The position numbers and the translations under genes were made by a program. A stretch of DNA of 35,431 nucleotides from NCBI GenBank assembly GCA_015490875.1, contig WFWZ01000378.1, positions 1 to 35,431 of the forward strand, written 5' to 3'. Below are positions 507 through 32,740 of this stretch, one piece after another; the stretch's first letter is position 1; every line of letters begins with the position of its first letter. Origin of the DNA: Planctomycetaceae bacterium (lineage in GTDB: Bacteria; Planctomycetota; Planctomycetia; Pirellulales; Pirellulaceae). The notes under the pieces are model-generated. The model was not told the DNA's origin and searched no databases. It saw nothing but the letters and a program-made list of their open reading frames with translations.

Positions 507-3500
507 GTGAGCCAGGGCGGGTCGAAATTGGTCGTCTTTGTGGGGCTGGCGCTGATGTGTGCCGGCGGAGGGATCCGTCTGGCTGCTCAAGATCCGCCCT
601 CTTCCCCACCGTCTTCGGTTCCTCAGGTTCGAGCGTTACCGTTTCCGGTCTATTTGAAGCGGAACGAGGATGGGGAGTTGGTCCTGGTCCCCGACTTTTC
701 TCTTGAGGAGTACCTTCGGCTGTTTGACAAGGCGGTCGGAGGCGAGGGCCCTCGGCCGAAGGGGTACGGGATCCGGGAGCTGGAGGTGCGAGGTGAAGTA
801 CTTCAGAGAGCGGCCCGCCTGAAGGTGCGTGTGGTGATCGAGCGTCCAGCGGCGGTGGGAGAAGCCGAGAATTCAAAGCGTTGGTTGTCCGTGCCTTTGC
901 GTATGGGACAAGCGGCGATGGTCGAGTCGCCGACATTCCAGGGTGAAGGACGCAAGTTCGTGACGTATGACTTGGAACGCCGCACGTATCTGCTCTGGTT
1001 CGCCGCGCCGCCAGGCACCCGTCATGAAGTGGAGGGTACCTTCGTCGTCCCCGTCGTTTCGACGGAGGGGGGAGGTTCCCTGAGCGTGGCACTCCCCGAA
1101 GCTACGATCAGCCGATGGCACGTCGACGTGCCGGGGCGGCTCGCAGAGGTTACGCTGCAAGGCGGAACGGGGGGAGTCGTCTCGTTGGGGGCATATCGCG
1201 ACGGAAAAACCCAGACGCAAGGGGAGGGCCTTCGAGGGGACACGAAGATTGTATGGAAACGAGTCCATGAGACCAAAGCGGCTCGGACCGGAATCGACGT
1301 CGACGGAACGATCCGGATCGACATCTCGGGGCCTCGCCAAGTGACGAGCGAAGCCCATTTCGCGGTGCGGCCGGTGGAGGGGGAGCTCTCTGAAGTCGAA
1401 CTTCGTTTGCCGCCGGGGATGGCATTTCGTCCGGTGGCGGACGCGTTTTTTGAGTACACGATTCGGGAACGGAATGGGAAGGAAGGGCACCTGGTCGCCG
1501 TCCGGCCTCGCGGGGATCGCCCGCCCGAAGGAGAATGGCAGGTGCGAGTGAGTTGCGAGTGGGCGGGAGACGAGAGTGGCGACGCGAGCGCCGCGTGGCA
1601 GCCGGCACGCTTTGAGATCGTCGGGGCGGTGCGTCACCGAGGCGTGATTCACTGTACGGTCCACGGGCAATGGTCGGTGATCCCCGAGGTGGGGCCTCGC
1701 GTGGTACGCATCCCCGACCGCCCCCTCAGCTTTCGCTACTATGCCCAACCGCCTGAATTGACGTTGACCGTCCGGCGACGGTTGGCTCGCGGCCGTGTTC
1801 AACCCGACCATCGGGTCCGCGTCTACCGTGACCGACTCGAATTGCGCTCAAGGTTACACTACCGCTTCGCGGGTGTTCCTCCGGCCCGACTTCCCATTCG
1901 CGGTGGCGACTGGGAGTTGGTTGATGTCCAACTCGATGGCGAACCACTCCCCGAGGCTCCACAGGTGTCGGCAGGGGGGCAGGTTGAGATTGCACTTCCG
2001 GCAGACGGCGGAGCTGCCACGGGCGTCGAACTTGAGTTGACGTGGAAGAAACCGCTGGGCGAAGCTCAGCGAGAGGGTCGGGATCCCGTCGTCTTCGTGG
2101 TGCCTCGACCGGAACCGCCCCCGGAAGGCGCCGTTTTTGTGGCTCCCGGGGAGTTGCGAGTCGAGACGGCGTCCGACGTGCAGCTGGTGCCGCTGGCGGC
2201 CGAGCTGCGTGGCTTGGCATTGGATGCGACCCGTGGCGGGGGGGAGTCGGAGGCGAGTGCCGAGGTGATTCGGCTGCGTGAGCAAGGGGGCGGAGACTTG
2301 GGACGCTTCGCCGGCATGCTGTTGGTCCATGATCGCCAAGTGGAGGTCGACGAGGAGGTGGCCGTGTCGGGCCAAGGACCGCGGCTGGAGTGGACTCAGT
2401 TTCTGAGTTACCACGTTCGGTATCAGCCTGGCATTCGGTTGCGCTTGGCGGTGCCTCCCGTCTTGTCCGACGACGACCTGGGGCGACTCGAATGCATGGT
2501 GTGGCAAGACGCGGAGGGTCGACCGGCGTGGGGATCGGGTGAGGCGCGTTTGGACGTCGCTCGCGTCGCGGCTCCCGCGGAAGGTTGGCCGGACGGATGG
2601 CGCGTGATCGAGATCGTGTTGCCACGGGTCGAGCTTGGGCACTTTGTGATCGGGTTGCGCCTGGAACTACCTGCTCCCGACGACCCCGATCGTTCGGGGA
2701 CCTGGGAGGTCCCTTGGTGCGTGCCGGTCGACGTCGATGAGACGCAAGCGCGACGGCGAGGGGCGGTGCTGGCGGTGCAGCTAGGAGGACGTTCTTGCTC
2801 GGTGCTTCCGGTCGAGCAGTGGCAGCCGGTCCCGGATGGGGATGGACTTCAACAGTTCGAGACTTCCTTGCCGGTGGTGGACGGTCACGTGACGATTCAG
2901 TTCGCTTCGGCTGCTTCTGGAGATTCCGCCGATGTTGGGATCGAGCGTCAATGGGTGCAAACGTGGCTGACACAGACTCGTCGCCGAGATCGGGTGGTCT
3001 GGCGGGTCGTGAGTCAGCGACGCGAACTGCGAGTCGAACTACCTCAAGGCGTGGATGCCAAGGAAGCTGACGTACATTGGGTGATCAATGGAGAAGCCCG
3101 GTCGGCCCCGCATCGTCGGTCGGGGCGGATATGGGAGGTCCCTTTGGCGCAGGAAGATCTGGGGCGTCCGCTCGTCGTCGAGGTGTGGTATAGCTTTCCC
3201 GGTCGCCCTCCCACCGGTCGGCTTGAGTTGACCTGTGCCCAGCTCGTCGGGGCCCATGCCCCTTCGCGAAGCTACTGGCAGGTCATCACTCCGTTGCGCG
3301 AGCACCTATGGAAGGTCGGCGGTGACTGGGTGGCCGAATTGCGCTGGGAACGATGGGGAGAGTTGTTATGGCGGCGTGTCTGGCCTGCGCAGCCATCGCT
3401 GGAAAGCTGGGTGGGTGGATCTCACCAGGCACCGCTTCCTGCCACCGTGCACGCATACACGTTTTCGTCACTGGGAGCACCACAGAAGTTGCCATTGGTT

Positions 3501-3872
3501 ACGGTACGCCGAGCCTGGATGGTGGGCGGAGCGTCCGGAGTTGTGCTCCTGATCGGGTGGCTGATTACCTCTGTGACATGGATGCGTCATCCACGCACGT
3601 TGGCGCTTCTCGGGACCGCGCTCATCGCCGTTTCGTTGCTGATTCCCTTGCTTGCTTTCGAGCTGGCACAGGCCGCCCTGGTCGGCGTTGCCGCCTGCTG
3701 GTTGGCTTGGGCGATCGACTGGCTGATCCGTCGTCCTCAAGCGCGACGGCCCAGCAGCGTGATCTTGGAACCACCTTCCGGCCAGAGCCGGGTTGTCCCG
3801 GTCGAATCGCCGGGGACTACCTTGACCGCGCCCGCGATGGCTCGCGAGTCCTCTGTCGAATCGTTAGGGTGA
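507..3872 (+). CDS. Giant exported membrane-anchored protein, planctomycete type
   Basis: This is a protein of about 1121 residues with no enzymatic motif that I recognise. Starting at GTG 507 places a signal peptide at the very N terminus (KLVVFVGLALMCAGG, then cleavage near LAAQ). A GTG at 429 is also in frame but would add an improbable 26-residue n-region; neither start has an ideal ribosome-binding site. The body is beta-rich and full of Val, Arg, Glu and Trp. It includes a VPLRMGQAAM segment and a later LSVALPEATISRWHVDVPG segment. Three hydrophobic helices near residues 1025-1085 precede a Pro/Ser-rich tail. The protein should therefore be secreted across the inner membrane with most of its mass outside. 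The next gene starts 4 bp after this stop, so the two are probably translated together. Function is unknown; an envelope or cell-surface role is inferred. Confidence 0.85.
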   Translation: MSQGGSKLVVFVGLALMCAGGGIRLAAQDPPSSPPSSVPQVRALPFPVYLKRNEDGELVLVPDFSLEEYLRLFDKAVGGEGPRPKGYGIRELEVRGEVLQRAARLKVRVVIERPAAVGEAENSKRWLSVPLRMGQAAMVESPTFQGEGRKFVTYDLERRTYLLWFAAPPGTRHEVEGTFVVPVVSTEGGGSLSVALPEATISRWHVDVPGRLAEVTLQGGTGGVVSLGAYRDGKTQTQGEGLRGDTKIVWKRVHETKAARTGIDVDGTIRIDISGPRQVTSEAHFAVRPVEGELSEVELRLPPGMAFRPVADAFFEYTIRERNGKEGHLVAVRPRGDRPPEGEWQVRVSCEWAGDESGDASAAWQPARFEIVGAVRHRGVIHCTVHGQWSVIPEVGPRVVRIPDRPLSFRYYAQPPELTLTVRRRLARGRVQPDHRVRVYRDRLELRSRLHYRFAGVPPARLPIRGGDWELVDVQLDGEPLPEAPQVSAGGQVEIALPADGGAATGVELELTWKKPLGEAQREGRDPVVFVVPRPEPPPEGAVFVAPGELRVETASDVQLVPLAAELRGLALDATRGGGESEASAEVIRLREQGGGDLGRFAGMLLVHDRQVEVDEEVAVSGQGPRLEWTQFLSYHVRYQPGIRLRLAVPPVLSDDDLGRLECMVWQDAEGRPAWGSGEARLDVARVAAPAEGWPDGWRVIEIVLPRVELGHFVIGLRLELPAPDDPDRSGTWEVPWCVPVDVDETQARRRGAVLAVQLGGRSCSVLPVEQWQPVPDGDGLQQFETSLPVVDGHVTIQFASAASGDSADVGIERQWVQTWLTQTRRRDRVVWRVVSQRRELRVELPQGVDAKEADVHWVINGEARSAPHRRSGRIWEVPLAQEDLGRPLVVEVWYSFPGRPPTGRLELTCAQLVGAHAPSRSYWQVITPLREHLWKVGGDWVAELRWERWGELLWRRVWPAQPSLESWVGGSHQAPLPATVHAYTFSSLGAPQKLPLVTVRRAWMVGGASGVVLLIGWLITSVTWMRHPRTLALLGTALIAVSLLIPLLAFELAQAALVGVAACWLAWAIDWLIRRPQARRPSSVILEPPSGQSRVVPVESPGTTLTAPAMARESSVESLG

Positions 3873-3876
3873 GTCG

Positions 3877-6800
3877 ATGTGTGGCGCGACCGACCGACCA
3901 AACGCCAACAGCCTCCTCCGAACTCTCGCGGTGCTGGGAGTGCTCTTGGGGATGGCGGATGGCATCGCTTGGGGACAGCAAGGCCAGTCGGAGGCTCCGT
4001 CGCAACTCAAATACTTTCGGCTGCTCGTTCCGAGGAAAGAGGTGGCGAAGGTTGCGACTCGCCACCTCCCGATGGAACGCGACGTGCTGCAAGCCAAGTT
4101 GAAGGCGTGGTCCGAGCGGCAGGCCGAGGCCGGAGTTCCCGTCGTGCGACTCGAGAAGGCCGACTATCGGTTTCATTTCGACGGTCGGGATCTTGTGGGC
4201 GAAGCGCGATGGACATTCGCCGCCGAAGGCGCCATGCCGGCTTGGGTTCCGCTGCAGCCGATGCGACTGGCGCTGCGCCAGTGCACGTGGGAGACCGGTG
4301 GCGCCCCGGGAGCGCCCGAGATGGCGCTGGCCGGAGTGAACGACCGCGGGGAATTCGGGGTGGTGGTGGACCGAGCCGGAGTGGTCGTGGCGAGCGCCTC
4401 GGTCGCCGGCGAGGTTCTCGGGGAAGAGATGATCCGATATCACCTCGAGCTGCCCGCTTGCCCGGCCACCAGCGTGGAAGTGGCGTTGCCGAGCGGGTGG
4501 CAGGTTCGCAACGCACCGTCCGAACTTGTCTCGCAAATGGATGCGGCTCGAGCGCTCGGTTTCAACGAGCCGGGAACTGAGGGGGGAGACCCCACGCCCC
4601 GAGGGGTCGGCGAGCGGCCATGGCGCACATCGAAGTGGCGGACGGCCGGCGGTCCACTCGAGATCGTTCTCGAGCGGACCGATGACGTGTCGGGCGGGGC
4701 CATCGCTTCCTTCGAGCAGAAGTCGCTCTATGCTTTGACGCTGGGGGGCATCGAATGGCAAACCGAGTGGTCCTTGCGAGTGGATCGCCCCAGTCTGCGT
4801 ACAACCATCCTACGTGTTCCCGACAGTGTCTCGGTACTGGAAGTCAAAAGTGGTGCCACCAACTTGTCATGGGTCTGGCGTCAGGAAAACGAGACGAATG
4901 GACGGCAACTGCTCATCCACTGGCCCGACCACTCTGCCGGTTTGCGCCGGTTGCAGGTTTCGGGAATCGCCCCGTTACCTTTAGGCAAGCACACCACGCT
5001 GCCGATCCTCCAACTCGTGGCATCCGGCTGGCAGCAGCATCTCCTCACCGTGCAGCTCGATCCGCGACTTCAGCTGAGTCACCTCGCCACGCAAGGATGC
5101 GTTCGAGCGGCGGAGGTGGATGGGGGACGAGCGACGGAGACATTCGAACGACTTCCCTTTGTCGCGGAATCGGAGGAAGGAACGGTCGAATTTGCCGTGG
5201 CTCTCCGCGAAGTAAAACTCGAGGCAGACGCGGCGACCCACCTGCTCATTCGGCGCACCGGCCTGCAGGGAACGTTCCGAGTGAGGGTGGAGGCGACGGA
5301 AGGCGAGGTCGATACACTGCCGCTCGAAGTCGCCGCACCGTGGCGTGTCGATTCGATCGATTGCGATCCCCCTGAGCGACTTGAGGCGGCAGAGGTCGTT
5401 GTGAACGACGGGAAACGTTGGCGAGCCACGTTGCGGCTTCGAGAGCCGATCACGCGTGGCTCCCCTTTGGAGATCACCCTGCATGCCCATCATCCTCCTG
5501 CAGAAAAACTTGCGGCTGCGACCTTTCGGCCATTGTTGCTCGAGAGTGCCTCGACACGCCGTTGGGTGGCCGTCGACTGGGAGGAGGGGTTGGCTTTGCA
5601 ACTGATCGGCGACAGCGAGGTGCAACGCGTGTCCCGATCGGATTTCACCGCCGCTCAGGAAGCACTCCTGCCGGCGCCGCGCTACGGTCTCATTTTCCGC
5701 GATGATCACGGTGCCGACCGTTTCGAAATGCATGTGGCTCCCGGCACGCCTCGGTACGAGGCGACCACGCTGGTGGAAGCGACGGCACGGCCGGGCATCC
5801 TGGAAGAACATTTTCGCATCCAGTGCCGGCCGACCGATGCGTCCATGTCGCGATTACGACTCCGCGTGAGTTCCTCGACAGGAGCGGCCATCGCTTGGCG
5901 CGTCGTGTCCCCATCGGATGTCACGCTCACCGCTCGCCATCTGGAAGCGGAGCCTTCGGGAGACAAGTCTTCGGACATGCCGCGGACTGAAGAATGGGAA
6001 CTCCTGTTTGGACGCGACGTTTCCGAGGTAGTCGTTTTAGAAGGGACGCTCGAGCGGCCGCTCGAGGGCCCCTGTCTGGCCACGTTAGTCTATTTGCCGC
6101 ATGCCGTTTCGCAGCAGGCTCAGTGGGCGTTGCATGCCGAGGAGGGCGTGCGCGTCGGGATCCAGCCGACAGCGGTCCGATCGATCCCGCTTCCGCCAGC
6201 CGAGGGCTCGCATCGCTCACTCGTGGCCTGGTTCGGTTACAGCGGAGCAGGAGAAGCGAAAATCGCACTAAGGCCTCTGCCCGACCCGCAACCGGTCGTC
6301 TGTTGGGCGGCCCGTTCGCAGACGCTGTCGTCATTCGACTTGAATGGAGCAGCGCGCCACCAAACCCGCTTCTTTTTGGTCAATCAGGGTCGACCGACCG
6401 TGCAACTCCGTTTGCCCAAGAACGCGAAAGTCGGAACGCTGGGAATACGCATCCATGGCAAAGCCGCTGATTGGCGTTGGGGCGAAGAGGCCGACAAGAT
6501 TATCGTGGCGTTGCCGCAAGAGGCCCGCGGTGCCGTCCTGGATGTCGATCTGAGGACAGGGGGGCCGAGGGCTCGATGGTGGGCAAGACTCCAGCCGGTG
6601 GTACCGGAAATCGATGTCCCCGTGTTAGCGCATCGGTGGTGCGTCTCCCTTCCGGGGGCCTGGTGCCTGACGATTCCAACAAGCCAGCGACGCCCGCGCT
6701 CGGAGGGAACATCTGCACGAATTGGCGGTCCGCGTTGGCCGTCGTCCGATCTGCAACCAGCATCGCTGGAGACACTTCAGGCTGCACTCGATCGCTTGGT

Positions 6801-9800
6801 TTCTCAGGAACGACTGGAAGAACCGACTTGGGGAGAGTGGCTTGAGGCAGCGGCGCGTATCATGGGCGCAGGTACCGACCGATCGGTGTGGGTTGCCGAG
6901 CCGAGCTTGCGCATGCGCGGACTCGTGGCGGCCACTCCGCTATGGAAGGCCGGTGAGGGACCACGTCGAGCATCTGAGTTGCTCCGGGAGTACTCCCTGA
7001 CCTGGTTGGTCTTTCCCGAGGGACACGTGTTAGGGCCAGCCGAGTGGTCCGATTGGACAGAGACTGGTACGGCCAGCATGGCGACGTGGGTGCCTCTGGA
7101 GGCGTGGACTGCCGAGCCGCCGGTTGCCGCACTCCCTTGGGAGCGGACCGATCTGGGGGGGCCTACCGGGGACTCGGGGGAAGGCCGCGTGGTGACCGGC
7201 GCATCGGTGTGGGGTGTCCATCGTGGGGTGTGGGCGGCAGGACATGTTGCCCTTTGGGCGCTGCTGGCGTCGGGGATTGTCTGGACGAGCCGCGGACGCT
7301 GGCTGGTGTGGTGGTTTTGGACGGTCGGCGCAGCTCTTTGGGCGGCTCTTTGGCCGGTCTTGTGGGGACCTTGGGGGCTGCTCCCTCTGGCAGCCGCGTT
7401 GGCCGGAGGCGCCTGGATGGCGGTCCTGTCGAGTCGATCGCCGCTCGAGGAGGCCGATGCTCCCACCGGCAGCACCGTGGCTGCAAAAGCTGTTGCGATG
7501 GCGGGTTGGGTGGTGCTTGCCGGGATGGTCTTGTGGCGAGGCTCGATCGTTGTCGGGGCGGATGGAGTGCCTTCCGCGTGGGCCATCGTCGTTCCCGTCG
7601 ACGACCAGGGAAAACCGGTGGGTGAGTATGACTATGTTCCGCGGGCACTCTACGAATTACTGGTCCGAGACTCGCAGCGTCCGTTGAAGGCACCACGGGG
7701 ATGGATGGTGGAGCGAGCGGTTCACCACGCGAGCGGCTTTCAGCGCGGGGGCGTGGCTCAATTGGGCAACTGGCTTTCGGAGTATTGGTTTCATGTGATC
7801 GACGCGCAGCGCGAGGTGACGATTCCGGTACCGCCGCTACCTGTTAAGCGCGTGGTGGCCGAGTCGGGTGGTGTGCCAGTGGACCTTCGGTGGCAAGTGA
7901 TCGGCGACCAGGTTCACTTCCGTTTTCCGTCGGCGGGAGAAGTCACCGTGCGGGTCGAGTGTGGTGCCGAAGCGGCGGGGGAGGTAAGCGGGACGTGGGA
8001 CGTACGCGTGTTGCCGGCCGCCCGAAGCCTCCTGCGGCTCGCATGGTCAATGGACTCGAGCTGGTCGGTCGACGGAGCCATAGGGCGCCTGCAGCCATCG
8101 GCGGACGGAACCGGCCTCGAGGCCGACCTCGGGAGCACGGATCGAGTGGTGTTGCGAGGAAGCGTTCCGAAACGGGACGACCTGGCTTCGGCAGAACCGA
8201 TACCGGTGCGCGACCGATGGTGGCTCCACATTCATCCCGATTCGGTGGTCGTCGAATACCTCCTGGAGTCTGAGGAGGGCCTTCCCGAGCAGTTTCATCT
8301 CGATGTGGACGCCTCGCTGCAACCTCTGGTCCTGCGAAGCGGCGGTTACTCGGTCACCCTGGAAAAACGGGATGCCACCACGGCTCGAGTAGGACTTTCG
8401 CTACGGGGAGGGGCAGAACGACCGAACAAGGTGGCGTTGAGATTCTTGTGGCGAGGTCGGCAAGGAGTTGGCCGATTCCGGCTCCCCCACATCGTCCCTC
8501 GTGGCATGGAAGTCACCGAGCGCACGGCTGCTGTCGATGCTGACGCATCGTTGTCACTCACGTTTCTCGAGGCTTCGGGAACGGACGTCGATCCGGCCGT
8601 GTTCGCTCAGGCATGGGGCAGTGCGGACGTGGCTCCTCCGCGACGCGTGTTGCGCGGAACTCCCGCGAGTCTCTCCTTCGAGGCGGCAACTCGCTTGGAA
8701 CCTCCGTCTCCCCACGTAACGCCCATCTGGTCGGTACACGTCAGCGACGGGCGGCTGGAATGGACGCTCGAACTCGATTGGCAAGTGGCGCACGGGCGGG
8801 TCTGGCGCCATCTCCTTCAGATGTCTCCGGGAGCCGTTGTCCAGAGGGTCATCTGGAGGGACCGGAGCGACTCCAAACCCCTTCCGTTTGTCCACGAAAA
8901 AGACGGCAGTCTGTCGATCTGGATGCCTGGGGCCGTGCCGGCTCGCTACACGATGCGCATCGATGGATTCACACTCTGGCGTCGCGCGAAACATGGGCGC
9001 CGAGTTCCCCTGCCTCACGCCCGTTTCCCCCATGCCTCGGTGGCGTCCACCGTCTATCGTTTATGGCGAGACGACGAAGTGCTGGTTGTGCCCGGCGGTA
9101 TGGAACCCTTGAAGGGAACGCTTGAACCCGCTTGGGAAGAGAAACCGAACGGCTCGTGGTGGATCGGAAGTTACCGAACGACCGAAGGTGCTCGAGGATC
9201 GTTGGCCGTTCGTCCCAACCGTCCTCGCGTCCGCGGCTGGCTGGTCACTCATCCTTTTCGTGAGAACGAAGGATGGTATCTGGAAATCGTCTACGGCGTG
9301 ACGCTGATCAACGCGGGCGCGGCGCAACTCGATTCCCTCCGCCTGGACGTACCGGCGACGTGGAAACGGATGGAACAGCTGAGCGACGGAGTGCACGCGG
9401 AGTTCCAAGCGGCGCCCGATGCGGCGCGACAACGTCTTGTGTTGACGCCTCGCGAACCGATCTCGCACGCACGGATAGCACGTTTCGTCGTGCCATTGGC
9501 GTTCGATGAATCGGAGCGAATGACGCTTCCAGAAGTGGTTCCACTCGATGACGCCAACATCCAACGTTACGTCGTGCTGCCGCGGCGCATTGGGGAGGCT
9601 CGCTTGAGCTGGATTACGCAGGGGGTCTTCCGCCGCAGTCTTCCGTCTTGGGTAGCCCAGCAATGGAAGCCGCCCGCCGAAGCGACCGTCTTCCGGGTCG
9701 TGCGAGGAAGTCGGCCCACGGTGGTGCTCGACCGGGTCCGCCAGCGACAAGGCAAAGCGGAAGTGTGGCTGGCCGACCTCCTGGCCCTGCGAGACCGTCG

Positions 9801-10803
9801 CGGAACAGCGTGGCTGGTGGGGCGGTACGATTTGATCAGCTCGGATCGACCGGGCGTCGAGCTCCATTTGCCGCGCGGCGCTACGCTCGTCGCCGCGCAG
9901 CTGGACGACCGTCCGGCTCGAATCTCCCTTTCCGAACCGGGGCGGTGGTGGGTTGAACTGGCCGCGACGTCTCTCCCCCAACGGCTCGAAGTGATCTGCC
10001 GTTGGAACGGTGACGGGCTCCCCCGTGAAGCGCCACGGCTTGAACGTTTCCGAGTTCGGCGTACCCTCTGGACCGCGCTCGATTTCCAGACCGATTCGCA
10101 CATCACTGTGAATGCCCCCTTGAAACAACTCGCGATTTCACAAGCCGACCGACTCCGCTTCCAGAATACGGTCCAGCTTCTCGATCAGGCGGTGACCCAA
10201 GGGTGGCAAGGGTCGCCCGAAACGATCCACGCCTGGTACCGGCTCTGGTTGGAACGTCTCGCCTGCATCGAGGCTCGCCAGGTGCACTTGGCCATCGCTC
10301 GGCGGAAGCAACCGCAACCTGGACAGATCGAGCGCGCACTCCAGGCGGCCCATTTCGAGACTGCCCGGCAGGTTTGGGACGAGATGCAGCACCGCCGCCC
10401 GGCCGCCGGATGGCTGGCCGGTTGGCTGGAAGCATCGAGGACATCCTCGGCCGCCGTGTCGGTGGTGAGCCGGGGATGGAAGTCGCACGCGCCTTGGGTG
10501 GTGACGCCGCACGCGACGCGTCGAGCTCCTTGGTGGGTGGCGATGGCCGTTTTGCTGGTCGGCCTTGCTGGGGCGCGCTGGGTGGGGCGGCAGGCAGTCG
10601 AGCGTGTCTTGAACCGCCCCAGTGTGTGGGCCTGGCTCGCCGGACTGGTCCTCTATGCGTTCACCGGTGCTGCCGTTTCGAGTCTCGCCCTGCTGGCCGT
10701 AGCCATATTCCTCACGTGGCACTACCGCGAACGGCCACGACATCCGAGGCGTCCAAGTTCAGAGGAGAGCCGCTCGCGAGCCTCGGCGGCGCCCGCCTCC
10801 TGA
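3877..10803 (+). CDS. Very large (2308 aa) exported protein with two membrane-anchored units
   Basis: The N terminus is a signal peptide (LLRTLAVLGVLLGMADGIAWGQ). A first beta-rich ectodomain runs to about residue 1110. A cluster of about four hydrophobic helices follows at roughly 1115-1230 (for example WALLASGIVW and WVVLAGMVLW). A second ectodomain opens with VPVDDQGKPVGEYDYVPRALYELL-like sequence near 1237, reminiscent of the start of the upstream protein (RNEDGELVLVPDFSLEEYLRLF). A second helix cluster near 2215-2290 ends in a basic tail. I read this as two copies of an ectodomain-plus-anchor unit in one chain. No catalytic motif was recognised. The start ATG lies 4 bp after the previous stop, with GGTGAG just upstream, which suggests translational coupling. 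Long uncharacterised signal-peptide proteins of this kind are common in planctomycetes; an envelope role is inferred. Confidence 0.85.
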   Translation: MCGATDRPNANSLLRTLAVLGVLLGMADGIAWGQQGQSEAPSQLKYFRLLVPRKEVAKVATRHLPMERDVLQAKLKAWSERQAEAGVPVVRLEKADYRFHFDGRDLVGEARWTFAAEGAMPAWVPLQPMRLALRQCTWETGGAPGAPEMALAGVNDRGEFGVVVDRAGVVVASASVAGEVLGEEMIRYHLELPACPATSVEVALPSGWQVRNAPSELVSQMDAARALGFNEPGTEGGDPTPRGVGERPWRTSKWRTAGGPLEIVLERTDDVSGGAIASFEQKSLYALTLGGIEWQTEWSLRVDRPSLRTTILRVPDSVSVLEVKSGATNLSWVWRQENETNGRQLLIHWPDHSAGLRRLQVSGIAPLPLGKHTTLPILQLVASGWQQHLLTVQLDPRLQLSHLATQGCVRAAEVDGGRATETFERLPFVAESEEGTVEFAVALREVKLEADAATHLLIRRTGLQGTFRVRVEATEGEVDTLPLEVAAPWRVDSIDCDPPERLEAAEVVVNDGKRWRATLRLREPITRGSPLEITLHAHHPPAEKLAAATFRPLLLESASTRRWVAVDWEEGLALQLIGDSEVQRVSRSDFTAAQEALLPAPRYGLIFRDDHGADRFEMHVAPGTPRYEATTLVEATARPGILEEHFRIQCRPTDASMSRLRLRVSSSTGAAIAWRVVSPSDVTLTARHLEAEPSGDKSSDMPRTEEWELLFGRDVSEVVVLEGTLERPLEGPCLATLVYLPHAVSQQAQWALHAEEGVRVGIQPTAVRSIPLPPAEGSHRSLVAWFGYSGAGEAKIALRPLPDPQPVVCWAARSQTLSSFDLNGAARHQTRFFLVNQGRPTVQLRLPKNAKVGTLGIRIHGKAADWRWGEEADKIIVALPQEARGAVLDVDLRTGGPRARWWARLQPVVPEIDVPVLAHRWCVSLPGAWCLTIPTSQRRPRSEGTSARIGGPRWPSSDLQPASLETLQAALDRLVSQERLEEPTWGEWLEAAARIMGAGTDRSVWVAEPSLRMRGLVAATPLWKAGEGPRRASELLREYSLTWLVFPEGHVLGPAEWSDWTETGTASMATWVPLEAWTAEPPVAALPWERTDLGGPTGDSGEGRVVTGASVWGVHRGVWAAGHVALWALLASGIVWTSRGRWLVWWFWTVGAALWAALWPVLWGPWGLLPLAAALAGGAWMAVLSSRSPLEEADAPTGSTVAAKAVAMAGWVVLAGMVLWRGSIVVGADGVPSAWAIVVPVDDQGKPVGEYDYVPRALYELLVRDSQRPLKAPRGWMVERAVHHASGFQRGGVAQLGNWLSEYWFHVIDAQREVTIPVPPLPVKRVVAESGGVPVDLRWQVIGDQVHFRFPSAGEVTVRVECGAEAAGEVSGTWDVRVLPAARSLLRLAWSMDSSWSVDGAIGRLQPSADGTGLEADLGSTDRVVLRGSVPKRDDLASAEPIPVRDRWWLHIHPDSVVVEYLLESEEGLPEQFHLDVDASLQPLVLRSGGYSVTLEKRDATTARVGLSLRGGAERPNKVALRFLWRGRQGVGRFRLPHIVPRGMEVTERTAAVDADASLSLTFLEASGTDVDPAVFAQAWGSADVAPPRRVLRGTPASLSFEAATRLEPPSPHVTPIWSVHVSDGRLEWTLELDWQVAHGRVWRHLLQMSPGAVVQRVIWRDRSDSKPLPFVHEKDGSLSIWMPGAVPARYTMRIDGFTLWRRAKHGRRVPLPHARFPHASVASTVYRLWRDDEVLVVPGGMEPLKGTLEPAWEEKPNGSWWIGSYRTTEGARGSLAVRPNRPRVRGWLVTHPFRENEGWYLEIVYGVTLINAGAAQLDSLRLDVPATWKRMEQLSDGVHAEFQAAPDAARQRLVLTPREPISHARIARFVVPLAFDESERMTLPEVVPLDDANIQRYVVLPRRIGEARLSWITQGVFRRSLPSWVAQQWKPPAEATVFRVVRGSRPTVVLDRVRQRQGKAEVWLADLLALRDRRGTAWLVGRYDLISSDRPGVELHLPRGATLVAAQLDDRPARISLSEPGRWWVELAATSLPQRLEVICRWNGDGLPREAPRLERFRVRRTLWTALDFQTDSHITVNAPLKQLAISQADRLRFQNTVQLLDQAVTQGWQGSPETIHAWYRLWLERLACIEARQVHLAIARRKQPQPGQIERALQAAHFETARQVWDEMQHRRPAAGWLAGWLEASRTSSAAVSVVSRGWKSHAPWVVTPHATRRAPWWVAMAVLLVGLAGARWVGRQAVERVLNRPSVWAWLAGLVLYAFTGAAVSSLALLAVAIFLTWHYRERPRHPRRPSSEESRSRASAAPAS

Positions 10804-22518: not shown

Positions 22519-23274
22519 ATGATTCGAGTCGTCGAGATCACACGTTACTTCGATGTGGGAGCTCGATCGATTTGCGCCGTCGATCACGTCAGCTTCGACG
22601 TCGGGGCGGGGGAGGTGTACGGGCTGCTCGGACCCAATGGCGCGGGAAAGACGACCACACTGCGCATGATTCTGGGACTGCTGCGTCCGAGTGGCGGTTA
22701 TGCCGAAGTAGGCCAGTGGCGAGCCGATGAAGCGCCTCAAGCGGTCAAACGTTCCCTGGGACTGTCATCAGCCGGCACGGGCGTTTACCCCTGGTTGACC
22801 GCCCGCGAGTTGCTCGAGTACTTCGGCGAACTGTACGGTTGCGATCCCGAATGGACGCAGGGTCGGATCGCCGAGTTGGCCCGTTTGTTCGGAATCGAAG
22901 AGCTGCTCGAACGGCGATGTGGGACCTTCAGCACGGGTCAGAAGCAGCGCGTCAGTTTGGCTCGAGCCCTCATGCACGATCCGCCCGCCATGCTGCTCGA
23001 CGAACCGACACGGGGGCTCGATATCGTCGGTAGTAAGGTCATCTTCGACTACGTGTCCCACTTGCGAGACCAGGGAAAGGCGGTGATTGTTTGCACGCAT
23101 CGTCTGGATGAGGCACAACGGTTGTGCGATCGGTTCGGCCTGCTGAACGAGGGTCGGCTGGTCTTGCAAGGAACGCTTGAAGAACTGCAAGACCAGACGG
23201 GGTGCCATTCGTTGACGGAGATCTTCTTGACGTTGTTGGCGCAGTCGACAGAGGAGAGTGTCGATGGACGGTAG
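22519..23274 (+). CDS. ABC transporter ATP-binding protein, NatA-like
   Basis: From ATG 22519 this is a 251-residue nucleotide-binding subunit. It has Walker [10 protein letters not shown] (38-46), signature FSTGQKQR (137-144), Walker B AMLLDEP (157-163) and H-loop His194 in CTHRLDE. The Q-loop position reads SSAGTGVYP and lacks the usual Gln, as in many NatA-type export ATPases. It overlaps the permease-CPBP gene by 11 bp, so the two are coupled and form one exporter. The start lacks a clear ribosome-binding site and may depend on the upstream S9 gene. Substrate unknown; Na+ or drug/peptide export is the usual annotation. Confidence 0.92.
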
Positions 23275-25402
23275 TCGCACGCCGCCACCTCGATCGCACG
23301 CGCGCTGGACGCGACTGGCTCAGAAGGAGCTGCGTGAGACGCTCCGGGATCGACGTACACTCGTGACACTCGTCCTGATGCCGCTTCTGGTTTATCCGTT
23401 GCTGTCGATCACCTTCAACCGTTTTCTCACAGCCATGCGGCCGGCCGAAGGCCAAATGTGGGTCATCGCCGTGCAGCCGTCCGAGGCCGTCGATGCCGTC
23501 CAGGAATTGCTCGAAGAGGGCGAGCGACTCGTGTTGCAACGACGACGCAGCGACGGTGTTGTAGGTCCTCCGCATCCTCGCGTGAGTCTCAACGCGGTGG
23601 CCGATGCACGAACTGCCGTACGGGAACTCGAAGCGACGGTCGGCATCGAGGTCACACCGCCGGCCGTGCCGACCGGGCCGCCTCGTTGGAATCTGCTCTA
23701 CCGCGACGGCGAATCGACGAGTGCCGCAGCTTTGTCATTCGTGGAGCGTCGTTTGGCTGCCGTGAATGAGCAATCGTGGAGGACACGTCTGCAGCGACTG
23801 GGCATTCCGGACCGGCCTGTCGTGGCGAGCCGCCCGGTGGCTCTGGCCCGCCCTCGTACCACGACGCTGTCACTTGCTATGCTCGTGCCGCTGATCTTGA
23901 TTCTCATGACAATTACCGGCGCCGTCTATCCAGCGATCGACCTGACCGCGGGGGAGCGTGAGCGGGGAACGCTTGAAATGTTGATCGCCTCGCCCGCCCC
24001 CGCGTATCAACTCCTCTTGGCCAAATACGTAGCGGTCGTGACGGTCGCCGTCTTGACGGCGCTGGTCAACCTTGCGGCGATGGGGATGACGTTGACGGTG
24101 TCGGGACTGGGACGCGCTTTGTTTGGAACGAGCGGGCCGTCGCCGATGGGAGTAGCGCTGGTCGTGGCGTTGACGTTCTTGTTCGCTGCCTTCTTCAGCG
24201 CTTTGCTGCTGGCGATCACTGGCATGGCCAGGAGCTTCAAGGAGGCTCAAGCTTACCTCATTCCCGTCATGCTTCTGGCGATTTCCCCTGGCATGATGAC
24301 GATGATGCCGCAGTTGCAACTCAATGGATGGCTATCGGTCGTCCCACTTGTGAACACGGCGCTGCTGGCACGCGAAGCGTTGTCGGGGGAAGCGGAGATC
24401 TTTTGGATTGCCGTCGTCGTCGTCACCGACATCCTTTATGCGGTGGGCGCCTTGGCGATCGCGGCGCGTGTTTTCGGAGCGGAAGCGGGAATCGCGGTGA
24501 CGCACGGTCAGTGGCGAGACTTGTGGCGCCGCCCCTCCCGAGCGTCAGACCAGCCAGCCTGGTCCCATGGCCTTGTGGTGCTCGCCGGCGCTTTCTTGAT
24601 GCAGTATCTTTTCGGCAACGTAGCCATCCTGACCAGCGGACACTCCATTCACCGGCTTTTATGGGCCAATGCTGGAGTCACGCTGGTCGTCTTCGCCGCG
24701 TGGCCCACCGTGCTGGCACTCCATCGCCGCATCCGCCTCCGTACCACGTTCGCGCTGGAAAGACCTCCCTGGTTTGCGTTTGTAGGCGCCGTGCTCCTGG
24801 GCGTTTCCCTTTGGCCCTGGGCCTATGAACTGTATCGACTTGCCGAAGCGGTCGGAATGGCACCGCTGGGGCAGTCACGGCTGCGTCAGATGGAGCAACT
24901 GATGGAGGGACTCAAGACGGTATCGCCCTGGGTGATTTTCGTAGCGTTGGCCGTCGTACCGGCGTTAGCCGAAGAGTGGTTTTTTCGCGGGTTCGTGTTG
25001 AGCTGGCTTCGAGCGCGGTTGAAGGTCGGCACGGGCGTGCTGGTCAGCGCCCTGCTCTTTGGGGCCTTCCATGTCTTCTCGCCCACGATGCTTTCTCCCG
25101 AACGATTTCTGCCAACCACGTTGCTGGGGCTGGTGCTCGGATGGCTCTGTGTGCGAACGCGGAGTCTCTGGCCGGGGGTGGTCGTGCATCTGGTGCACAA
25201 CGGCTTGTTACCGTGGATCGTCTTACACCAGCGACAGTGGGAATGGTTATGGGATCAGGGCAGTGGAGAGGGAACGCCCCCGATCGCTCCGCTTTGGCTT
25301 GGCGTCGCCCTGATGTGCAATCTGGTGGGTCTTGCGTTGATCTTCCTCTGGACACGCGGACGCCGACCACGTCGAGCACCCGATGCCTCGAGAGTCTCCT
25401 GA
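23264..25402 (+). CDS. NatB-type ABC permease fused to a CPBP intramembrane protease
   Basis: GAGGAG at 23251-23256 places the start at ATG 23264 (712 residues). Residues up to about 430 are an ABC-2/NatB permease: a cytoplasmic [17 protein letters not shown] start, one helix, a large extracytoplasmic loop, then several helices including [18 protein letters not shown]. The C-terminal part is a CPBP (Abi/CAAX-like) protease domain with all motifs: E570-E571 in EEWFFRG, H603 in FGAFH, and H642xxxN646 in HLVHN. The fusion architecture occurs in planctomycetes. The protease may process the exported cargo or act on the transporter; this is inference. It ends an operon, with a terminator 48 bp downstream. 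Confidence 0.93.
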
Positions 25403-25684: not shown

Positions 25685-28561
25685 TTACGGATTGATCTGT
25701 GCCCTCCAAAATCTCCCGCGCATGCCGTTCTTTTCGCAATAGTAGGCTCCATGCGTCGTGCCGATGACCGCCTTTTCGGGGTCGGTCGGATGCGCCAAAG
25801 CCTTGAGAACGTATTCGTCTTTGGCCATTGGGGGAAAGTGAGCGTCGAACGGCCTCTTCATGTAGAACATGCGCCCGGTGTTCGCGTCGACATTCCACAT
25901 CTTGCAGGCATACATCATGTGCTGGCGAACGCTCTGATATTCCATATCGAACGCGGTCACCGGCTGATCGTACAGCGTCTCTTGCGCCTTGCTCACGGCG
26001 TACGCTTCGGGCGCGTACATTTGCAGGAATCGGCTGCCCCCGTTGACCGTCTCATAAATGCCGCGCGTCGTCGCAATGTAGAACCAGCGGTATTTGTCAC
26101 GTAATTGAAACCGCATATCGAGCACCGGCGCCGGTACGCCCATGGCCACACAGCGTTTTTGATCCAGATCCCAAACATAGACAGAGGATTCACCTTGCGT
26201 TTTGTCGCCGCCGCTGATCAGGGAAGGACCTCCGGGCGATGTGACCGCAGTATACAGTTGTCGCCGCCGGTCTCTCGGACGGGCGTCGGGATTGAAGCAG
26301 ACGAACGAAATCCTTTTGCCATCGTGGCCCAGCAACGACCAGGATTTTCCGCGGTCCTCACTGACGTACAAGCCATTGCCTGCGATCACCATGCGATTCG
26401 TGTGTTTGTCGAGAGCCACGATCTCTCCGAGCATGACGTCCTCGGGCTGCGAGGAAAAGGTGACAGGGCAGGCCAGCCGCTGCCAGGAAGCGCCCCCATC
26501 CGCGGAATAGAGCAATTTACTTTCCCCGTTTTCCACCTCGGCACAATACCACTCATTCGCGTTGTTTGGGGCGACGGCCAAGGAGCGGATGACGCCGTCA
26601 GCTTTCTCTTCAGACTGACCGGGGTGCGGCGTCCACGTTTTCCCGAAGTCCCGGGAGATCCACAAGCCATGCATGGTGCGAGCAAGAATCGTATCGCCCT
26701 CGACATGGATCAGTCCCATAATCGCTCGGTCTGTCCATTCGATCTTGAGGGGGAGCGACTTGGGTTCCAAGGCCGGATCGAATTTGGACTGGAATTCAGT
26801 GCCGTCCAACCGCGCGGTCAGGTAGGGAGAGCCAATGGCCAGACTCGTTTCGAACCGGAAACCAACCCGACAGACCTTTGTTGTGGAACGGGACCGATCG
26901 TACAACTCATTCGCCTTATGCCAGTGCTTACCATCGTGAGAATAGTACGTGAAGAAGGTCCGACCTCGTCTTGCCAAACAGATCCAGGAAGGGTTGGCCG
27001 GTTCATCCTTGGTCGTCAGCGGATGCCCCATGTACTTTCCACCGGAAAAGTCGCGCTGGTGTGTTGGCGGGCAGAGTCCGTGAGTGGTCGTCGCAAAAAT
27101 GCCAAAGGGTGAACCGTGGACTGCCAGAGCGACATAGGCGCGGCGAGCGCCGTGTACCGTCACTTTGATCAAGGGCGGTTCCTGCGGCTCGATGGCAAGC
27201 GTCAATGCCTCGGCCAGGGAGCGGACATCGCTCTGGTGTTCGTAATACGTGTAATGCAAACCCGCAACCGTATCACCTGTCACCGGGGAAGCCACTGGCG
27301 GTGCGACCATTTCGATCAGCCGGGTGGGGCGTGAACGAGCCCGTTGGTCGAAAATGCTGCGCAACACCAGAGTGACGAGAGGATTCCGCACTTGGGTATC
27401 GAGCAATATGCTGTGTTGAAAACTCGTGGGTGCATTATGAGTTTCGAGGATTTCACCGGCATTCGATGCGTCCGCGATTTCGACGCGAGCCTCCACGTGC
27501 GGCGGGGATCCGTCGGCCATTTCCCAATGGATCAGCAACTGGTTACCGCATCGCCGCACGCGCATCTGGCTGATCTGGAAAGGATCGAACCGAGGCTGTT
27601 GCGGCTGGGTGAATCGATACGTATGCGGCTTGCCATCGGTCGGTACATTGTGGTCGGGGAGCAAATCTTCCTGCTGCGCATGGGTCACGACCTGGACATG
27701 GTCGGCGGGATGATCCTGGATACGCCACAACGCGACGTGGGAACTTGTGGGCTTGTGGGTTCGAACCGTCACGGTATTCAGACTGCGCCAACCTTTACCA
27801 TCGACCAGGCCGTACGAATGGCGACGATGGAATTCGTGCACTTGATTTCGCGTCGTTATCTGTTCGATGAATCCACCCAGTGAGGACAGGCCGCGCGAGA
27901 GAACCGGCAACTGGAAGGTCGCCATGTGATGCCACCGGTTGGCCTTCAAGTCCTTGATCCAAAGACCGAAATAGCTGATCTTTCGCGGGTTGTGCTCCGG
28001 TTTCCAGATCTTATAGACGATCGTGTACCATTCGTTCGGTTTCATCAGCGGAATGGGCCCGGAGGCCCCGCCGGTCGCCCCTTCGCCGCCGGTGGAACTA
28101 CTGAAGATGGTCGGTCCGGTGTACAGACACTGGACCTGTCCCTTCATGTGCCCTCTCCAAAAAGCATTGTTCAGAACGTTCTTCTGCCACGCGCCCTTCA
28201 TCACAATCCCTGAGTAAAAAGGGGCGCCGTTTTCATAACTCGTGTAGAGAAATGTAAAGTACGTACCGTTCGAAAACTTGGGGAAGCGGATATCCTCGAC
28301 GAAAGTCGCGACATACTCGCCCTTTTCGAGAGGCCCGCGGCCGTAGGACTGGGCGCGAGCGGCGAGTGGAAAAAGGGCCAGACCGAGGCCCATCGTGCCG
28401 ATGCCCAACAGCATGAAAGAGATCGCGAAATGCGTTCCTTTCGCGGGCGCCGAGTCGACCATCGTCCGAATCCCGGTGTCGCGGTGCCGAGCTGCCGGGC
28501 GGCACCCATCGGCGCGGCCGCCACTGGCCCGGGTCGCGATGAAACTCACGATATGACGCAT
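25685..28561 (-). CDS. Exported multidomain protein: DUF3472-like region plus Asp-box beta-propeller
   Basis: This 958-residue protein has a long basic n-region, a hydrophobic core (LLGIGTMGLGLALFPLAARAQ) and therefore probably a signal peptide; an internal ATG at residue 34 is an alternative start. The first 300 residues resemble DUF3472, with FTFLYTSYENGAPFYSGIV, GGEGATGGAS and FGLWIKDLK. A middle part carries a lectin-like or glucanase-like stretch (FFTYYSHDGKHWHKANELYD). The last 330 residues contain Asp-box blades (SRDFGKTW, SADGGASW, SEDRGKSW), as in sialidase and sortilin-like propellers. GGGAG lies 8 nt before ATG 28561. The helix-hairpin-helix gene ends 42 bp upstream, so the two are probably an operon. 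Carbohydrate binding is inferred; no catalytic residues were identified. Confidence 0.85.
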   Translation of the reverse strand: MRHIVSFIATRASGGRADGCRPAARHRDTGIRTMVDSAPAKGTHFAISFMLLGIGTMGLGLALFPLAARAQSYGRGPLEKGEYVATFVEDIRFPKFSNGTYFTFLYTSYENGAPFYSGIVMKGAWQKNVLNNAFWRGHMKGQVQCLYTGPTIFSSSTGGEGATGGASGPIPLMKPNEWYTIVYKIWKPEHNPRKISYFGLWIKDLKANRWHHMATFQLPVLSRGLSSLGGFIEQITTRNQVHEFHRRHSYGLVDGKGWRSLNTVTVRTHKPTSSHVALWRIQDHPADHVQVVTHAQQEDLLPDHNVPTDGKPHTYRFTQPQQPRFDPFQISQMRVRRCGNQLLIHWEMADGSPPHVEARVEIADASNAGEILETHNAPTSFQHSILLDTQVRNPLVTLVLRSIFDQRARSRPTRLIEMVAPPVASPVTGDTVAGLHYTYYEHQSDVRSLAEALTLAIEPQEPPLIKVTVHGARRAYVALAVHGSPFGIFATTTHGLCPPTHQRDFSGGKYMGHPLTTKDEPANPSWICLARRGRTFFTYYSHDGKHWHKANELYDRSRSTTKVCRVGFRFETSLAIGSPYLTARLDGTEFQSKFDPALEPKSLPLKIEWTDRAIMGLIHVEGDTILARTMHGLWISRDFGKTWTPHPGQSEEKADGVIRSLAVAPNNANEWYCAEVENGESKLLYSADGGASWQRLACPVTFSSQPEDVMLGEIVALDKHTNRMVIAGNGLYVSEDRGKSWSLLGHDGKRISFVCFNPDARPRDRRRQLYTAVTSPGGPSLISGGDKTQGESSVYVWDLDQKRCVAMGVPAPVLDMRFQLRDKYRWFYIATTRGIYETVNGGSRFLQMYAPEAYAVSKAQETLYDQPVTAFDMEYQSVRQHMMYACKMWNVDANTGRMFYMKRPFDAHFPPMAKDEYVLKALAHPTDPEKAVIGTTHGAYYCEKNGMRGRFWRAQINP

Positions 28562-30967: not shown

Positions 30968-32740
30968 CTAATCTTCGGTCAGGGGCACGACAACGTAATA
31001 GTAGAGACCAGCGCCTGAGACTACAGCAGCTGCAGGATCTAGCACATTCGCCCCGAATTCATGTCGCTGGAAGGTCAGTAGCTGTTCCGGAGAGGCAGGC
31101 AGCAGACGGCCGGCTCTGAAATCGTATGCCCCGGGTCTGATTGTCACGTGCTGCCCACCCAGAGCCTTCAGTGTCCGAAACGGACCGTGGAATCGTACCA
31201 ATTGGAACTCGTCCAACGCTGCCCCTGATATTACTTTCGTTTGACTCGGGTCAAAGGGGGTCCAACGTCCAGTCCGAATGACTCGCAGTGGCGTTTTCAT
31301 CGGACCGTGCTTGAATGCCCAACCACCGGGTGCCGACGAATACGGAGATGCCCATAGCCGGCCTGTACCAGGCCGTGACGCATTCGCCTCGGAAAACCCG
31401 TAGTGATACAACACCTTGGGACGGCGATTGACAACTTCGCTTATCTTCTCGTAACACGACATTCCCGATTTTCCGCACGGCACCTTCTTGAGGACGAATG
31501 ACCCGGTTCGTCTCATCGCTGCCCCGGCAAGATCGCCACCGACATTTCCGACGCCGGCCCGAACGAAATTCTCTTTGAACGATCGATTCTCGCCTCCTGG
31601 CACATATGTTTCATACGCTGCATCGAGCGTCGTTCGAAGCGCAAGCTTCCCCGTGTAGATTGCCACTTTCGTGGCTATCCTCGCTTCGCTCGCACCAGGA
31701 ATCACACCAGCGGTTGACTCGATGACGAAGTTCCTGCCGAGTGACCGAGTGTAACTGAAACTCTTGTCTCCTGTAGCCTTTGCTATGCCGTATTCGATAG
31801 TCGTCTCAACGACCGATTCCGCAGCTTTCCACGCGAGGTACGTACCTATTGCCGCGAGCGTAGCACAAAAGAGGAACCTGCCAGAAGGGTCTGTAAGTAT
31901 AAGGGGGTCGTTGGAGACGTAAGCGTAGATATTGACGTCCCCACTGCCATAACCAGCAGGATCACGCGTGGCAAAGCAACCGACGTTCCAAAGGTAGACA
32001 CGCTGCCGAAACAGATGATATCGCTCCGGTTCCCACCGTTGCCCCGTGAAAAGCACCTCCCACCCGAAGCTACTCCCCGACTGCTCCACAAAGCCCGGCG
32101 TGAGGAATAACGGTTCGCCATAAGCCGTGTAGGCATACCGCTCCTGCACGTCGCCGTCTTCGTCCGTGACACTCGTCACGTTCCAGTTGCCGTCTTGCAG
32201 CGCGTAAAGCCGCTCGTCCAGCGTGCCGCTTCCGCTCGTGTCGCGGTCGCGGAGGACGCAGTCGTCGATATACCTGAGCCCCCACACGAATTGCCGGTTG
32301 GGACTCGTCGACGAGTCGACTCGCTCTTCCAAGACCTGCCACGCCGACGTGTAGTAGAAGTGACGGGTTTCTGTCAGAACGCCGGCCGAATAGTCCTTCC
32401 TCACCACGCGGAAGTTACGGCCGTCGTATTGGTTTTCTTCAGCCGTGCGGTTTGCCGCCGCGGCGACTGTGTTCTCGCGCCAGATCCGGTTCGAAGCTCG
32501 ATCGTAGCCGTACTTGATCCGGTCGACGTCCTTGGCGGCGCCGTAGTCGTACCAGTACGAGTCCTTGACTCGGCCGAATCGGTCCGATCGTGATTTGGAA
32601 TGGAAGGTGACCACGGCAACTCTTGGATACGCGGGATGAGTGGCGGCCTGCCCCGCGGACGGTTTTCTCAGTATAGCGGACGTCGGTGATTGGCGGCAAC
32701 GAGAATCGGGTGAGGTCGAGCGGCGGGACTGGTCTGCCAC
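30968..32740 (-). CDS. RHS-repeat tail protein with divergent C-terminal domain (5'-truncated)
   Basis: The first 55 residues look non-native and lack a ribosome-binding site. RHS sequence begins near DRFGRVKDSYWYDYG, close to nt 32580. YD-type motifs follow (YGYDRASNRIWREN, YTAYGEPLF), then the RHS core end ATRDPAGYGSGDVNIYAYVSNDP and DPSGR near residue 285. Full-length RHS proteins carry a shell of over 1000 residues upstream; here it is missing, so the gene is an orphan tail or a remnant. The last 300 residues are a helical linker and a C-terminal domain starting LYHYGFSEANAS with GRLWASPYSS. This faintly recalls HYD1-type ADP-ribosyltransferases, but the fit is uncertain. GC falls from 37/60 (32161-32220) to 28/60 (31741-31800) across the core/C-terminal boundary, as expected for an acquired toxin tip. 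Confidence 0.75.
   Translation of the reverse strand: MADQSRRSTSPDSRCRQSPTSAILRKPSAGQAATHPAYPRVAVVTFHSKSRSDRFGRVKDSYWYDYGAAKDVDRIKYGYDRASNRIWRENTVAAAANRTAEENQYDGRNFRVVRKDYSAGVLTETRHFYYTSAWQVLEERVDSSTSPNRQFVWGLRYIDDCVLRDRDTSGSGTLDERLYALQDGNWNVTSVTDEDGDVQERYAYTAYGEPLFLTPGFVEQSGSSFGWEVLFTGQRWEPERYHLFRQRVYLWNVGCFATRDPAGYGSGDVNIYAYVSNDPLILTDPSGRFLFCATLAAIGTYLAWKAAESVVETTIEYGIAKATGDKSFSYTRSLGRNFVIESTAGVIPGASEARIATKVAIYTGKLALRTTLDAAYETYVPGGENRSFKENFVRAGVGNVGGDLAGAAMRRTGSFVLKKVPCGKSGMSCYEKISEVVNRRPKVLYHYGFSEANASRPGTGRLWASPYSSAPGGWAFKHGPMKTPLRVIRTGRWTPFDPSQTKVISGAALDEFQLVRFHGPFRTLKALGGQHVTIRPGAYDFRAGRLLPASPEQLLTFQRHEFGANVLDPAAAVVSGAGLYYYVVVPLTED

Follow-up and report, generated by a model that had tools for sequence, protein, structure and literature searches.

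Ribophorin I, or Ost1, is a subunit of the eukaryotic and Asgard oligosaccharyltransferase. On the exported side of the membrane it carries two tandem beta-domains that resemble the N-terminal domain of the M1 aminopeptidases (ERAP1, LTA4H and PepN), with one transmembrane helix directly after them. The subunit is non-catalytic and binds a glycosylated peptide (PMC7226087).

The window analysed here is a 35,431-nucleotide stretch of DNA from a Planctomycetaceae bacterium (contig WFWZ01000378.1), in which two adjacent genes, A and B, form one operon that encodes exported proteins totalling more than 3,400 residues, in three units, A, B1 and B2. Tandem M1-type beta-domains followed at once by membrane helices are also found in A. 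The units nevertheless differ from ribophorin I in having five such domains and about three helices each, in lacking a sequence match to it and in being arranged as a three-unit operon; they share the fold of their single repeats (in A and B2) with the M1 aminopeptidases but lack the catalytic peptidase domain, and their domains stand in tandem. The fold itself is already known, and the likeness to ribophorin I adds a bacterial case to a fold that is most familiar from the eukaryotic translocon. None of the libraries and papers searched was found to describe the family, its operon of three units, how widely it is spread or the internal signal peptide: the literature search returned no paper on the family, and the locus tags of the P. 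limnophila essential-gene paper (PMC10632474) could not be linked to A or B.

Layout of the operon and homology of its units

Gene A opens with a GTG start codon at 507 and encodes 1121 aa, and gene B follows after 4 bp and encodes 2308 aa (Table 1). Each product starts with a signal peptide and finishes in a membrane cluster, as had been proposed in a preliminary description of this DNA, and the second membrane cluster which that description placed in the middle of the larger protein was located, spanning in all about residues 1117-1241 of B. An identical layout of signal peptides and membrane clusters was found for A and B in 19 other genomes.

Table 1. Features of the A-B operon and its upstream flank; coordinates are those of the window.
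Feature	Coordinates	Strand	Support or remark
Inositol-monophosphatase-family gene, C-terminal tail cut by contig start	2..88	+	frame reads PLDWERPHCAAAATAALHGELLDAVARS, then stop
Gene A = unit 1 (signal peptide, five beta-domains, ~three-helix membrane anchor, cytoplasmic tail)	507..3872	+	
Opening motif of unit A, RNEDGELVLVPDFSLEEYLRLF	660..725	+	
A, five tandem beta-domains	744..3512	+	AlphaFold model; M1 N-terminal-domain/Ost1 matches; HHalign between repeats
A domain borders: residues 80-256, 257-427, 428-606, 607-803, 804-1002			
C-terminal transmembrane anchor of A (residues 1002-1073)	3510..3725	+	membrane prediction and model
Gene B = fused units B1 and B2	3877..10803	+	
B1 ectodomain (unit 2)	3982..7191	+	HHalign to A 99.8%, to B2 99.9%
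Middle transmembrane cluster, anchor of B1	7225..7431	+	
Internal signal-peptide-like segment before B2, AKAVAMAGWVVLAGMVLWRGSIVVGA	7483..7560	+	candidate site VGA-DG (cut after VGA)
Opening motif of B2, DDQGKPVGEYDYVPRALYELL	7600..7662	+	
B2 (unit 3), five beta-domains	7696..10107	+	model; domain 3 matches ERAP1/LTA4H N-terminal domain, Z 13.8
C-terminal transmembrane anchor of B2 (residues 2219-2284)	10531..10728	+	membrane prediction and model

The three units were compared by local HHalign of alignments built from 20 genomes. All pairs matched over ~800-830 columns (A and B1: 99.8%, E 2.6e-28; A and B2: 99.7%, E 1.5e-25; B1 and B2: 99.9%, E 4.9e-32; these are single-pair rather than database E-values), and column-reversed controls gave no match. 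A, B1 and B2 are homologous. The match of A to B2 begins at residue 56 of A, inside the opening that had been singled out earlier as parallel to that of B2, and at position 7 of B2. An opening of the type V-[FLY]-[LVI]-P-Y-x-E-[FY]-x-x-L stands at the unit start in 8/25 sequences of A, 3/25 of B1 and 9/25 of B2, far above the 0.05-0.08 predicted from shuffles, and by both measures the parallel is real. Within the units, shifted self-alignments revealed repeats of ~160-175 residues. When the five domains of each unit were compared by HHalign, in most comparisons the first and the last found their best match in the domain at the same position, and domains 2-4 resembled each other.

The last two units are fused in most genomes, but in two genomes of other classes the three units are encoded by three consecutive genes, of 1128, 1237 and 1138 aa (L135) and of 1202, 1419 and 1470 aa (L136). 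These genes open with signal-peptide-like segments and close with membrane segments. Taken in order, they match the profiles of A, B1 and B2 best, the third gene of L136 tying between A and B2. In a tree of the units, A, B1 and B2 fall mostly into separate clusters within each of two operon types (described below), which argues that the three kinds of unit are old; many branches are long and the details of the tree are unsure. The HHalign matches, the separate genes and the tree together bear out the earlier suggestion of three related ectodomain-plus-anchor units encoded as one single and one fused double.

Fold of the units and family searches

The fold evidence covers the models of A and B2. 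The AlphaFold model of A was built from 13 rows (mean pLDDT 69, pTM 0.38) and that of B2 from 12 rows (mean pLDDT 74, pTM 0.44); with pLDDT and pTM at these levels the models do not give the overall shape. Both consist of a string of beta-domains followed by membrane helices. Three segments, A 82-253, A 804-1002 and B2 367-537, match the M1 N-terminal beta-domain with Z 12-13.8 and rmsd 3.1-3.3 over ~156-160 residues, where models without a clear match typically reach a best Z of 7-8. For residues 609-1002 of A the match is to the pair of lumenal domains that stand in tandem in Ost1/ribophorin I (Z 14.4 over 296 aligned residues), the rmsd of 15 being due to a different orientation of the domains. 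The remaining domains of A and B2 were assigned by repeat homology and secondary structure, without a fold match of their own. Profile comparison of the unit domains with M1 N-terminal domains gave weak matches that were in register, the best at 55% (B2 domain 5) as against at most 14% for reversed controls, and a profile search against PDB sequences returned nothing useful. As judged from the models, A and B2 share one fold type, so that the strong profile similarity of the units, whose absence would have counted against their kinship, is accompanied by fold correspondence in the two units modelled.

Neither A nor B has a match in Pfam or NCBIfam, enzymatic families included, and when the sequences in the three alignments were scanned against Pfam, matches were scattered and confined to one or two members. 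No peptidase family, and thus no catalytic thermolysin-like domain, was recognised in these scans; outside the matched domains, the modelled A and B2 consist of further beta-domains and membrane helices. The M1 N-terminal family PF17900 has no match in the window's own genome, the ribophorin I family of Pfam none in the window proteins or in the alignment members, and no outer-membrane or peptidoglycan-binding domain was recognised in A or B. A role as oligosaccharyltransferase partner was considered and rejected, as no STT3/PglB protein (PF02516) scored above the cut-off in 32 genomes, the window's own included.

Spread, operon types and neighbouring genes

Searches for A were carried out across the Planctomycetota, the profile search of genome contigs being based on a 5-row alignment. 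Matches were found in 53/60 relatives, 123/148 genomes of the class and 76 of the 199 genomes in a phylum-wide sample, and a broader profile found matches in 9 of 21 genomes drawn from those that had earlier been negative or weak. The system is absent from the nearly complete genomes G059, G167, G171, G185, G125, G093, G145 and G132, and is therefore dispensable in places and no universal structural necessity. In each of the 50 loci examined B lies directly downstream of A, and the two genes usually overlap by 4 bp.

Two operon types can be told apart. In type I, to which the window belongs, B is about 2100-2500 aa long; in type II it is about 2590-2720 aa, and in the tree this type falls together with the form that other classes of the phylum carry. 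The window's genome carries both, its type II operon (locus L107, G000:C94:1-12553) being likewise an A-B pair, divergent from that of the window but homologous to it throughout. The preliminary description had likened these proteins to large planctomycete paralogues; they are indeed large and related, but for the most part they form conserved orthologous operons of two types, spread across the class and the phylum, rather than a loose set. The system is retained by most genomes of the class, matches no described family and offers a concrete target for gene removal. On one contig (L152:1394-16721), A, a fused B and the start of a further A-like gene stand in tandem, an arrangement that suggests duplicated operons.

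A check of the neighbourhood in other genomes, called for earlier, showed the A-B pair to be kept and an inositol-monophosphatase-family (IMPase) gene often to lie upstream. The PLDWERPHCAAAATAALHGELLDAVARS tail at the start of the window resembles the C-terminal ends of the PF00459 proteins that relatives encode upstream of A; such a gene precedes A in 16/20 loci of the Pirellulales and in the majority of type I loci from elsewhere, often at a distance of 100-400 bp. The type II operons examined showed none next to them; for L107, which is one of these, the sequence upstream stops at the contig end. More than half of the Pirellulales loci have, beside the IMPase gene, a divergent gene for 230-316 aa of unknown family, e.g. 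L068:2183-3025 (minus strand), which has no Pfam match. Beyond these two genes no conserved neighbours of A-B were found.

The B1-B2 junction and a possible role in the envelope

Fused B proteins have an extra signal-peptide-like segment after the anchor helices of B1 and before B2. Relatives carry canonical AxA-Q forms at this junction, with the cut before Q; in L141, for instance, RGLAGLLLLAALLGAPSSARA is followed by QEAP, with the candidate cut between the two. A -3/-1 cleavage site follows the internal segment in 44/56 B proteins, compared with 48/141 C-terminal helices (Fisher p = 1.4e-8), 79/168 earlier middle helices and 51/68 true N-terminal signal peptides. Since this segment is kept in fused B, the protein may be a two-unit precursor, which signal peptidase may cut at the junction to leave three separate mature chains; an internal signal peptide of this kind predicts an unusual cleavage of a bacterial precursor. 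In the B of the window itself this segment is weak; the automatic site test chose a later hydrophobic stretch and so counted it as negative, and cleavage of B is accordingly put forward here as a hypothesis. Whether or not B is cleaved, three anchor helices followed by a fourth would leave B2 outside.

The planctomycete periplasm is unusual and enlarged, the membranes are folded, and few structural proteins are known. We propose that A, B1 and B2 are co-produced from a single operon, with translational coupling as the probable means, and that each consists of a signal peptide, about five tandem domains of M1-N-terminal/ribophorin-I type and, at the C-terminus, some three bundled transmembrane helices. 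B would have arisen by fusion of the second and third units with the signal peptide of the third retained as a fourth helix, so that all three ectodomains would lie outside the inner membrane. The units probably assemble into a non-enzymatic, heteromeric scaffold or strut, whose three arms, anchored in the inner membrane, would reach into the enlarged periplasm and link that membrane to the wall, to the outer membrane or to a client complex. A scaffold is favoured by the lack of an enzyme domain and of a variable repertoire, by the strong coupling of the operon and by a fold known from non-catalytic membrane subunits. Taken whole, the proposal is tentative, although we put it close to an even call. 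A wider version, that of a phylum-wide envelope machine of some fifteen ribophorin-I-like domains, made as three giants from two genes through a polyprotein cut at its internal signal peptide, seems possible but somewhat doubtful.

The same fold and end architecture, two such domains and then a membrane helix as in Ost1/ribophorin I, could also point to platforms beside the Sec translocon that hold or chaperone exported proteins or glycans, and the peptide binding of Ost1 would fit such a role. However, fold likeness alone does not give function, and the lack of an STT3 protein in the genomes searched places any ribophorin-like platform outside an oligosaccharyltransferase; we consider this reading unlikely. 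The tandem beta-domain arrays are also typical of adhesins, and Foldseek matches include integrin alpha chains and a pilus adhesin, as might be expected of adhesins or coat proteins facing outward from the cell surface. The integrin matches, with TM-scores of only about 0.1 and rmsd above 20, were set aside as generic matches between beta-arrays; the helix bundles are of the inner-membrane type, there is no surface-sorting signal and each type has a single conserved operon rather than a variable, expanded family, all of which makes an outward-facing coat improbable.

In a signalling or ligand-sensing complex, an envelope ligand would be bound by the ectodomains and reported by the tail of A, and the inositol-phosphatase-like enzyme encoded upstream would belong to the same pathway. 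In A the cytoplasmic tail is conserved and bears an ST-x-TAP motif, and the recurrence of the PF00459 gene agrees with this view, but the tail contains no known signalling domain, and both the wide gaps before A and the type II loci described above speak against it; we hold this reading to be distinctly unlikely.

Three other genes of the window may be mentioned. The gene at 23258-25402 (plus strand), which adjoins an ATP-binding gene, encodes an ABC-2 type permease fused to a CAAX-protease domain (Rce1-like, PF02517), and that at 25685-28561 (minus strand) a 958-aa protein with DUF3472 and BNR/sortilin-like repeats. The 590-aa protein encoded at 30968-32740 (minus strand) has no Pfam match at E 0.001; its RHS/YD-repeat-like sequence (e.g. 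GYGSGDVNIYAYVSNDPLILTDPSG) is possibly a polymorphic RHS tail.
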